A stretch of 64,000 bases of DNA from Isoetes taiwanensis (lineage: Eukaryota; Streptophyta; Lycopodiopsida; Isoetales; Isoetaceae). The notes under the pieces were generated by a model. The model ran no database searches, had not been told where the DNA came from, and saw nothing but the letters and a program-made list of their open reading frames with translations. The first letter of the stretch is position 1, and the number at the start of each line of letters is the position of its first letter. The stretch is from assembly GCA_021234155.1 (NCBI GenBank), contig JAJEKV010000052.1:3466254-3530253 (forward strand). The letters are read 5' to 3'. This document shows, in pieces, positions 17,613 to 23,475 of the stretch. Position numbers and translations under genes: made by a program.

Positions 17613-19046
17613 TGTGACGCTCCCAGAGTCCATACGATGCTCCCATCATATAGATACGGGACTTCCCCTCCCATGGCGACTAAATCACCACGGCAAGGCC
17701 CTCCGTCATGCTCGGACTACTCGGGATGGCCAAGTGTCCGGGCGAGGATCACGGAGGTGTCATTCGCCCCACGTCCTCTATGGGGAAATCCTATGACAGC
17801 GGAAGCATACATATACGTTAGCATCCAATCATAATGCAAATAAAATACCACCGCGAAGGGTGGCCCATCCTCATCAACATGGCAAAGATAATCCATACAT
17901 AACAACATAAAACAACACAATAACAGGCACTACCCCGGGCTCGGACTCCAAGGGATCAAGCGACACCCGTGGTCTCAAGATATCAACAGACGGAGATATA
18001 ACAATGGCGTTGGCGGCATAAGACAATGGCTAGGGTTGTCCACTCCATCCGCCCCTCCTCCTGCACACACTTTGCGGATAGGCCGTATCATGCTATGGCG
18101 TGCTTGTAGCCCTCAGGAGACGCAATCCCAAGGAATCACCCTTGGGACTACTCCGGGTTACATCTCCCCGGTCCGATGAGGGCAGGTCGAGGAGGCGCCC
18201 CTCCCCGGTATGACGGATCCACGGGTGCGCTTAGAGGATACGTGCCCCCTCGGTGACCCCCCATGACTGCACCCGACTTACTCCCCTAAATCTAAAGGTC
18301 AGCTCACCAACCCGATTCGAGCCAGGCTGCCATAAAGGCTCCCACCCTCCGGCCCGGGGAGTGTCAGGACCCATACCCGGCCCACACACGTGGATCGACT
18401 ATAAGTCTAGCACACCTGTAGGAGTCCCGTAGCCACCGATGGCGGGACCCCACCCCCGATTCACCTTCATACCCGTTGTTTGGTGCTGAACCACATCATA
18501 GCATCCGGCCGGGTAGGCTCTTGTGCACCGGGCCGCAAGTACGAGTGGTTTTAGGGGTTCTATCTAGGAGCATCTCTCTTGCTAGATGGCCTTTAGGTCT
18601 CTACCCACCCCTTTAGCCCATACAACACCATAGGAACGGAAAGAACTAAGCTAATACATCCATCCATCCATCCATAACTTGAATAGAACATAAAATAGAG
18701 ATTAACCTACTCAAACAAGGGTTAATCCTCGACTAACTAGGAAAACCAAGCTATCTACACACTAACCCGTGTATTCCTGGCTGGAGCCATGGTCTCGGTA
18801 TGGGTCCATCACACTAGGCTGGCGGGTGATTGATGATAACTCAAGCTTGGCTGATAACTGTTGCTCCTCCTTAGCTCCCAATTCGAATTTGGGAGTCAAA
18901 ATGGGGCAGGACCCCTTTTCCTAGGCCCAAAATGGAAGGTCCCCCCGGCCAATCGTCGATTTGGGCCAGGTGGCCCTTTGTTGGTGCTAATTAACTAATT
19001 TAGATTAATTAGGGTAATTAGGCCAAATACTTTATAATTATCCACA
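17613..19046 (-). repeat. LTR (3' LTR in element orientation), copy A
   Basis: It matches 22045-23475 almost throughout, with scattered small differences at CTG/CAG/CCG positions. On the minus strand it starts TGTGGATAATTATAAAG directly after the stop of ORF2 (TAAGCCGGAGACAT). Confidence 0.85.
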
Positions 19047-19057
19047 ATGTCTCCGGC

Positions 19058-19840
19058 TTAAGGAGCTAGTGCTGCAAGACCCTCCGTCTCGGTAGGCCAA
19101 TAGTTTGCCGGGTGAAACCGAGTATCTGTTTGTACCTCGGAGGAAGATCCGGGGCGACGAAGTCGATGAAGTCATCCATGCAAGATTCGGGCGAGCTCAT
19201 AGAGAACCTCGCCTTCTCTTTCCCCTCGAGTCCCCGCCACTACATTGGTATGTCCACATGATGTCCTCCAATAGAAGGAACTCGTGTCCTTGATGATATA
19301 TAACCGGGATAACATCTAACCCAGCCAAGCGCCCACCCTCCTCACGGCGTGGCGGCATCTCCTGCGCCAACTGTTTCCACCGGACAAAATCGTCCATGGC
19401 AACCCACTCGTCTTCCTCCTCGTCCGACATTTCTGGCCCCTTGCCCTTCTCTGCCGGGTAGGGTTTTCGTCCCTCCACATCTTGGTCCATAAGAATGGCG
19501 AAAAAGAGACTTCAAGAAACTCTTGCCCCTCATGGTCGACGACCGGTCGCCGAGCCCACCGGAGCTTGCCTCGGAGTAGCTCATACCCTCTCTTCCCCCC
19601 ACCAAGCATTTCCTTGACTACTGCTCGGTCAATATAGAGTTTAGGTGGCTCCCCCAAAGGAATACAGAGAGGAAGCATTTCCTCTACATAAAATTGCAGA
19701 AACTCAGCATAATCAGGGTGTTTCTGCATGTTCGAGATGAGGTCAATATTTGGGAGAGGAAAGGCTCTAAGAGGTCGAAGGCCACTTGGGGATCCAGTGC
19801 TCCCCATCCCGATACCAAGCAAGCGGATCCATGCCATATC
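19058..19840 (-). pseudogene. Retroelement ORF2, copy A (frame-broken)
   Basis: Same protein as the intact 262-residue ORF at 34614-35402, but broken by several short indels (for example near 19160, 19500 and 19790). The recognisable centre reads ISNMQKHPDYAEFLQFYVEE. See copy B for the description. Confidence 0.7.
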
Positions 19841-21373: not shown

Positions 21374-22044
21374 AAGTAAGGCGCTGGCGCTTAGGAGAGC
21401 AGTAAAGGTGGCGCTAGGTCACGAGGCAGCCACTGGGAAAAAGAGAGACAAGGTTTGGGCCGCTTGGGTCTGGCGGCTATGGCGGCGTCGAAGCGAGCAG
21501 GCGGCAGCGTATACAAGAAGGGAACTCCCGAAAAAAAACGGCCGTTAACTTTTTAAATTTTAAATTTTAAACTTTTTTTTTTAAAAAAAAAAAAAAAATA
21601 CGGCGGAAAAAAAATATACGCGCGAAAATACAAAGCGGCGCTGACCTGGTTATACGTGTTTCTTTCCGCGTTCTAAGTCGTCCAAACCCTGTCAGCGCCG
21701 CCATTGGGTTTGGCCTTCTGCTGGTCCCCTTGCGACCTGACGACAACTCCTTTAGGGTATTTCGGGTACGCTCGACCCATTGGAGCAATAATCTGGTCGA
21801 TCCGAGCTACGAGGAGGGAGTTATGGCGAAAACAAAATTCAAGTTTCTAACCCTAATTTCTAACTTTAACCCCTTCGCTAGGGAACACTATCTCTACAAC
21901 GGTCATTCGGTCCCATACTAAGCCAACTAACACACGGGTGGTGAGTTGGAACTTTCTAGACAAGAGTTTTTCATCCCCAACTAACGAGTTAGAGTATGGC
22001 GGTTGCAACAGTTTTGATTCACGGAACCATTGCTCGATACCCAG

Positions 22045-23475
22045 CGTGGCGCTCGAGTCCATCACGATGCTCCCATCGTATAGATCTGGGGACTTCCCCT
22101 CCCATGGCGACTAAATCACCACGGCAAGGCCCTCCGGTCATGCTCGGACTTCGGGATGGCCAAGTTAATAGGCGAGGATCACGGAGGTGTCATTAAGCCC
22201 CACGCCCCTCTATGGGGAAATCCTATGATAGCGGAAGCATACATATACGTTAGCATCCAATCATAATGCAAATAAAATACCACCGCGAAGGGTGGCCCAT
22301 CCTTATCAACATGGCAAAGATAATCCATACATAACAACATAAAACAACACAATACGGGCAGGGCACTACCGGGCTCGGACTCCAAGGGATCAACCGCTGA
22401 CCCGGGGTCTCCAAGATATCAGCAGGCGGAGATATAACAATGGCGTTGGCTGGCATAAGACAATGGCTAGGGTTGTCCACTCCATCCGCCCCTCCCTGTG
22501 CACACTTTGCGGATAGGGCAGTATCATGCTATGGCGTGCTTGTAGCCCTCGGAGGCGCAATCCCAAGGAATCAACCTTTAGGACTGCTCGGGTTACATCT
22601 CCCGGTCAGATGAGGCAGGTCGGGGAGGCGTCCCCTCCCGGGGTATGACGGATCCCTGGGTGTGCTAGAGGATCACGTGCCCCTCGGTGAACCCGCATCC
22701 GTGCAGGCTTACTCCCCTAAATCTAAAGGTCAGCTCACCAACCCGTTCGAGCCAGGTATGCCATAAAGGCTCCCACCCTCAGGCCCGGGGAGTGTCGGAC
22801 CCATACCCAGCCCACACCACGGTGGTGGCTATAAGTCTAGCACAGCGTAGGAGTCCGTGTAGCTAGGCTTAGAAGGGACCCCACCCCCGATTCACCTTCA
22901 TACCCGTTGTTTGGTGCTGAACCACATCATAGCATCCACGGCCAGGTAGGCTCTTGTGCACAGGCCGCAAGTACAGGGTTTTAGGGGTTCTATCTAGGAG
23001 CATCTCTACTGCTAGATGGCCTTTAGGTCTCTACCCACCCCTTTAGCCCATACAACACCATAGGAACGGAAAGAACTAAGCTAATATATCCATCCATCCA
23101 TCCATAACTTGAATAGAACATAAAATAGAGATTAACCTACTCAAACAAGGGTTAATCCTACGACTAACTAGGAAAACCAAGCTATCTACACACTAACCCG
23201 TGTCCTGGCTGGAGCCATGGTCTCGGTATGGGTCCATCACACTAGGCTGGCGGGTGGTTGATGATAACTCAAGCTTGGCTGATAACTGTTGCTCCTCCTT
23301 AGCTCCCAATTCGAATTTGGGAGTCAAAATGGGGCAGGACCCCTTTTCCTAGGCCCAAAATGGAAGGTCCCCCCTGGCCAATCGATTTGGGCCAGGTGGC
23401 GCCCCCTTGTTGGTGCTAATTAACTAATTTAGATTAATTAGGGTAATTAGGCCAAATACTTTATAATTATCCACA
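22045..23475 (-). repeat. LTR (5' LTR in element orientation), copy A
   Basis: Direct repeat of 17613-19046. Just inside it, at 22028-22044, the primer-binding site is present but altered (TCGAGCAATGGTTCC-like context) compared with the clean TGGTATCAGAGC at 37583-37594. Confidence 0.85.

Follow-up and report, generated by a model that had tools for sequence, protein, structure and literature searches.

The LTR retrotransposon at positions 17613-23475 of a 64,000-nucleotide stretch of Isoetes taiwanensis DNA (the window) raises the question of why a mobile element should carry the core of histone H3, and whether this cargo serves the element or travels with it by chance. We propose, tentatively, that the element inserted recently, is non-autonomous and carries a chimeric, tail-replaced H3 that was once a nuclear nucleosome-core protein and perhaps acted against silencing. 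The anatomy of the element is well supported; the function proposed for the chimera is read from its sequence.

The element (copy A) lies on the minus strand and consists of two LTRs of about 1.43 kb with a 3.0-kb internal region between them. Alignment of four LTR copies placed the 3′ LTR of copy A at 17613-19046 and its 5′ LTR at 22047-23475 (both minus strand), the inner end of the latter being blurred by sequence differences and its start approximate. The LTRs of copy A have TG...CA ends, and the 1.43-kb TG...CA LTRs described in the first-pass annotation were confirmed by this alignment. When the two LTRs of copy A were compared, 1286 of 1453 columns were identical in the raw alignment, and the mismatches were mostly clustered and of an error type; once clustered differences were set aside, 8 isolated substitutions were left, 4 of which touch no CNG site. 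So few isolated substitutions would make this a young insertion, provided that the difference clusters are errors. The primer-binding site had been reported as clean in copy B, a second copy of the element located further along the window. Indeed, the 12-base sequence TGGTATCAGAGC, which we take to match the plant initiator tRNA-Met, was found at 37583-37594 (minus strand), 1 base off the LTR of copy B, as the sole exact match in the window; in copy A the site, just inside the 5′ LTR, is corrupted. No tRNA gene was found in the window. A target-site duplication was absent from copy A when 5 bases on each side were compared (CACGT at 17608-17612 vs. ATGGA at 23476-23480), and it may have been lost through recombination or assembly. 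Directly 5′ of the 3′ LTR, TAAGCCGGAGACAT contained short purine runs only and no clear polypurine tract. At the opposite end of the element, an inverted repeat, CCACAATGG ... CCATTGTGG (23471-23512), straddles the outer boundary of the 5′ LTR. By eye, an ATG-started open frame 3′ of a TATA-like box was seen on the plus strand at 17520-17612, running into the 3′ LTR, and the insertion may interrupt a gene there.

Copy B (33778-39020, minus strand) has its 5′ LTR at 37596-39020 and, by LTR alignment, a truncated 3′ LTR at 33778-34602 (minus strand). It had been taken for a second insertion, a view that did not hold, given that copy B lies within a tandem duplication and that both copies come from one insertion. 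The tract at 18217-31981 showed 94.4% raw identity to 33778-47546 over 13,962 columns and takes in about 8.5 kb of flank beyond the element; in addition, 31956-33772 is repeated at 51200-53013. The tandem units span 18217-33772 and 33778-53013, a duplication of about 15.5 kb, with an additional ~3.65 kb, mostly CT-rich, in the second unit (47546-51200). Moreover, the same single C/T difference distinguishes left from right LTRs in copies A and B, as duplication of a single insertion would produce. The tandem duplication may be real, or it may be an artefact of assembly.

Among 337 clusters of differences between copies A and B, 187 touched CWG, 64 more touched CCG/CGG and 86 touched neither, compared with 13.2% (CWG) and 11.1% (CCG/CGG) of random stretches, a contrast that is somewhat overstated in that the observed count used both copies and the control only one. 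When counted by triplet, 30.8% of CWG, 40.7% of CCG/CGG, 23.3% of other CG triplets and 9.5% of the rest differed between the copies; isolated substitutions numbered only 32. Gaps were present in 177 of the 337 clusters, on which ground deamination was rejected as the sole cause of the differences. The differences are probably methylation-linked long-read errors over two nearly identical copies, with the platform, the methylation and the cause presumed; no report documenting nanopore error at CHG sites was found among the literature matches listed. Any dating by divergence in this assembly would go astray through this likely CWG/CCG error signature.

Coding content was assessed through Pfam scans. 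In the window, 165 fragments of at least 75 amino acids passed a low-complexity filter (124 once the second unit of the duplication and the CT-rich tract were removed), and part of these were scanned. Of the 45 submissions, 12 represented the element in copy A or copy B (ten copy-A stop-to-stop fragments, two of them within the LTRs; ORF1 read through its stop; and ORF2 of copy B), and 33 came from elsewhere in the window, one of which extends into the 3′ LTR. None of the 45 submissions matched a reverse transcriptase, integrase, protease or gag. Among the 12 element fragments, the only matches at E≤0.01 were to Histone and, with scores short of the family cut-offs, to the histone folds of CENP-S and CENP-T; the lack of pol domains noted in the first-pass annotation was thus borne out in these 12 submissions. 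On this evidence from sequence, the element is judged to be non-autonomous, with no recognised gag or pol. Elsewhere in the window, 1613-2137 and 15320-15892 (minus strand) hold a DNA methylase (N6_N4_Mtase) fragment, identified by Pfam, and an ORF that by eye resembles ParB, with no Pfam family above cut-off. At 3405-3785 and 13538-13924 (minus strand), matches to DUF4216, which we take to be a domain of plant CACTA-type elements, and to UPF0020 (methyltransferase) fell just below their cut-offs.

The internal region also contains an ORF that had been overlooked in the earlier annotation. This ORF2, which adjoins the 3′ LTR, is intact in copy B (262 aa; 34614-35402, minus strand), where its stop is 11 bases short of the 3′ LTR, and is frameshifted in copy A (19047-19837, minus strand) as judged by comparison with copy B. 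No relative of ORF2 was found at E≤0.1 among 1705 candidates; searches against PDB and PHROGs each returned one insignificant match (E 1.6 and E 0.33, respectively), and viral contigs returned none. ORF1 likewise had no match in PHROGs, and of its 28 pattern matches in viral contigs, 0 were confirmed by tblastn; a viral origin was rejected, neither ORF having a confirmed viral-contig match. There was no credible similarity between ORF1 and ORF2, and the structure models of both were poor (mean pLDDT 45 and 40, respectively). About 245 bp 5′ of ORF1, at 21610-21627 (minus strand; copy-B counterpart at 37168), are a TATA-like stretch and TTTCGCGC, which we call E2F-like on a consensus match only; of the 4 TTTSGCGC sites in the window, 2 are the one upstream of ORF1 and its copy-B counterpart. 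Located 5′ of ORF2, at 19916-19941 (minus strand), TGACGTCA and TATAAATA form a candidate internal promoter, both presumed to be promoter motifs from consensus matches only. Within the window, TGACGTCA was found only at this site and at its copy-B counterpart (35497), and TATAAATA was found 14 times. These motifs suggest that each ORF may have a separate promoter.

ORF1 (20093-21373, minus strand, start at 21373) comprises an extension of 327 residues followed by the H3 core, and is interrupted by a TAG. In the internal region, the reading frame stays free of stops for up to 373 codons, the longest such run in 500 sequences simulated by a Markov model being 342; the open frame of ORF1 is longer than expected by chance. 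The first-pass annotation had described an intron-free ORF ending in an H3 fold. The extension and the core are indeed joined in frame with no intron, but the frame does not run through, as a TAG stop lies inside the fold. The extension itself (20393-21373, minus strand), which matched no Pfam family above cut-off, was present as previously described, with about 327 residues and the basic motif PRKRRRKS, and a long helix was predicted at residues 187-238. The model of the extension had a mean pLDDT of 45 and reached about 80-90 only at residues 211-240. From residue 316, there is a weak RK...RKPHR resemblance to the H3 tail; a K9-like RKS motif was also seen in the extension by eye. When residues 1-325 were searched against 5.8 billion proteins, no relative was found at E≤0.01 among 1829 candidates, candidates being those that share 5-residue words with the query. 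When the whole length of ORF1 was used, 4879 of 7934 scored candidates matched, and the best 120 of the 4879 covered 22-32% of the query, a part that we take to be the H3 end; ordinary H3 proteins were too short to become candidates in this search. For the conservation of the fusion, the protein database searches provided no relative of the extension or of ORF2 for comparison.

The H3 core (20096-20392, minus strand), delimited by the Pfam Histone match and by comparison with H3.3, occupies ORF1 residues 328-426 and extends from K37 to residue 135. With the one stop (TAG) read through, Pfam Histone matched ORF1 at 6.9e-41, and the best solved-structure match was an H3.3 chain (5.6e-52), to which the core aligned without gaps from K37 to R134. 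Of these 98 residues, 84 were identical to the H3.3 chain (the stop being counted as a difference), and the 14 differing positions comprised 13 replacements and the stop. The H3 tail with K4, K9 and K27 is absent, and 327 unrelated residues stand in its place. The 13 replacements had a mean BLOSUM62 score of 1.0, compared with -0.42 (s.d. 0.43) under neutral drift, a value reached in 3 of 2000 simulations; three of the replacements require at least 2 base changes, and as many were seen in 1.6% of drift runs. This comparison used one H3 reference (the H3.3 chain) and left the stop out. The first-pass annotation had regarded neutral evolution of the H3 part in all copies as evidence against its interpretation; for this single sequence set against H3.3, the replacements were more conservative than drift. 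Its interpretation held in two respects: the LTR element is real, with an H3 core that follows a novel N-terminal region, and the H3 part shows signs of past purifying selection. The replacements suggest that the core was constrained while diverging, although the simulation does not distinguish whether this occurred inside the element or earlier, and the conservative changes could predate capture. Thirty positions, with contact, interface or fold roles that we assume, were picked by hand, and the core has the canonical residue at 29 of them, the exception being position 135 (P); the 30 were chosen after the differing positions were known and are a description rather than a test. No histone stem-loop was found, Rfam at gathering threshold giving 0 matches in the window.

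The TAG falls at H3 Q68 (20297-20299, minus strand), is codon 359 of ORF1, and is common to copies A and B, with identical surrounding bases in both. The open part of ORF1 (358 aa) ends within the histone fold, the pre-stop product matching positions 20-58 only of the 122 in the Histone profile, and any product of this copy is probably truncated. The stop is probably real; it may have originated through mutation of a methylated CAG, or through misreading. If it were a sequencing error, ORF1 would be fully intact here, an explanation that we consider unlikely. CAG is a CHG site, at which this assembly errs, and CAG/TAG disagreements do exist (one among the 32 isolated substitutions between copies A and B, and one among the 8 between the copy-A LTRs), but copies A and B agree over the bases around the TAG, and the commonest isolated A/B change is CWG vs. 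CCG/CGG (15 of 32) rather than CAG vs. TAG. A weaker form of this explanation, in which TAG is reassigned as Gln, is also unlikely because the natural end of the H3 frame, one residue past GER, is again TAG.

In our preferred reading, the element would carry two cargo genes without recognised pol and would be mobilised in trans by a partner sharing the LTR. ORF1 would be a chimera in which the H3 tail, with K4, K9 and K27, was swapped for an unrelated coiled and basic protein while the nucleosome-forming core was kept. In intact relatives, if any, the protein would enter the nucleus, pair with H4 and be built into chromatin. Nucleosomes built in this way would offer neither acceptor site, H3K9 or H3K27, so that the element would be silenced less strongly; K9 methylation is an input to CHG methylation in plants. 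Alternatively, the extension could tether element material to chromatin. The LTR pair, the primer site, the frame, the H3 core, its conservative divergence, the basic motif and the lack of a pol match support this reading, whereas the TAG in both copies, the lack of an independent second insertion, the absent target-site duplication, the lack of a clear polypurine tract and the failure to find relatives of the extension or of ORF2 count against it. Anti-silencing or chromatin targeting by the fusion may be suggested, although both copies here are stop-interrupted and come from one insertion. The more far-reaching claim, that a retrotransposon family with its own tail-replaced H3 deposits nucleosomes barred from H3K9 and H3K27 marks and so escapes plant silencing, is doubtful.

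Passive capture, nearly as likely as our preferred reading and a serious possibility although short of an even chance, would mean that the element transduced a diverged H3 gene by chance, together with an unknown gene, that the cargo has no role in the life cycle, and that the TAG is decay. The in-frame TAG would be in keeping with this, and neutral drift predicts about this many stops (mean 0.73; at most 1 in 83% of runs), so the number of stops does not discriminate. The promoter-like matches 5′ of each ORF would suit carried genes, and it is established that plant LTR elements take up segments of their hosts (PMC13317346). Yet a chance join that then drifted would hardly be expected to leave H3 fused in frame with a 327-residue partner, in an open frame of 358 codons, or to leave H3 replacements so conservative. 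It is quite improbable that ORF1, placed where gag would be, instead encodes a Gag-like structural protein whose histone core binds nucleic acid in the role of the zinc knuckle. ORF1 is the first ORF past the primer-binding site, a long helix is predicted ahead of its basic region, and nonautonomous LTR elements that keep only gag are known; against this, ORF1 has no gag family match, H3 needs H4 for stable folding, and the ORF1 model (mean pLDDT 45) is too poor to judge.

If our preferred reading is true, histone replacement by a mobile element would be a new anti-silencing route, and the chimera would be a natural tail-replaced H3 for asking how K9 methylation drives CHG methylation. To our knowledge, the mobile elements so far seen to counter silencing do so through methylation or small RNAs, and nothing relevant to histone mimicry or anti-silencing was found among the literature matches listed. 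Judging by titles and abstract openings among the matches listed, most subscription papers being outside the search, no histone-carrying retroelement was found described; even as passive cargo, histone capture by an LTR element was not found described within the literature searched.

When compared with known systems, ORF1 shares with canonical or H3.3-type H3 the core from K37 on, and differs from it in the replaced tail and in the replacements and stop described above. Like CENH3, it has a long divergent N-terminal region before the H3 core, and several of the whole-length ORF1 matches listed are named H3-like centromeric protein, most with ~72-82% identity over the matched part. A loop-1 insertion is a feature of CENH3; the core here is gapless against canonical H3 from K37, and therefore without this insertion, so that CENH3 identity was rejected on a comparison made with canonical H3 only. 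The centromeric names would appear to be automatic labels on canonical-type cores. LARD and TR-GAG nonautonomous LTR elements likewise have LTRs and a primer site without pol; unlike in these, the ORFs here have no gag match, and one includes a histone. Plant LTR retrotransposons capture host genes, and maize Bs1 captured host gene pieces; in the main text of a review of such capture, 'histone' has 0 occurrences (PMC13317346). As in maize Bs1 and gene-transducing plant LTR elements, captured coding sequence is here part of a chimeric ORF, but whereas the cargo of the Bs1 type consists of ATPase, xylanase or glucanase pieces (PMC13317346), the cargo of this element is a histone H3 core.
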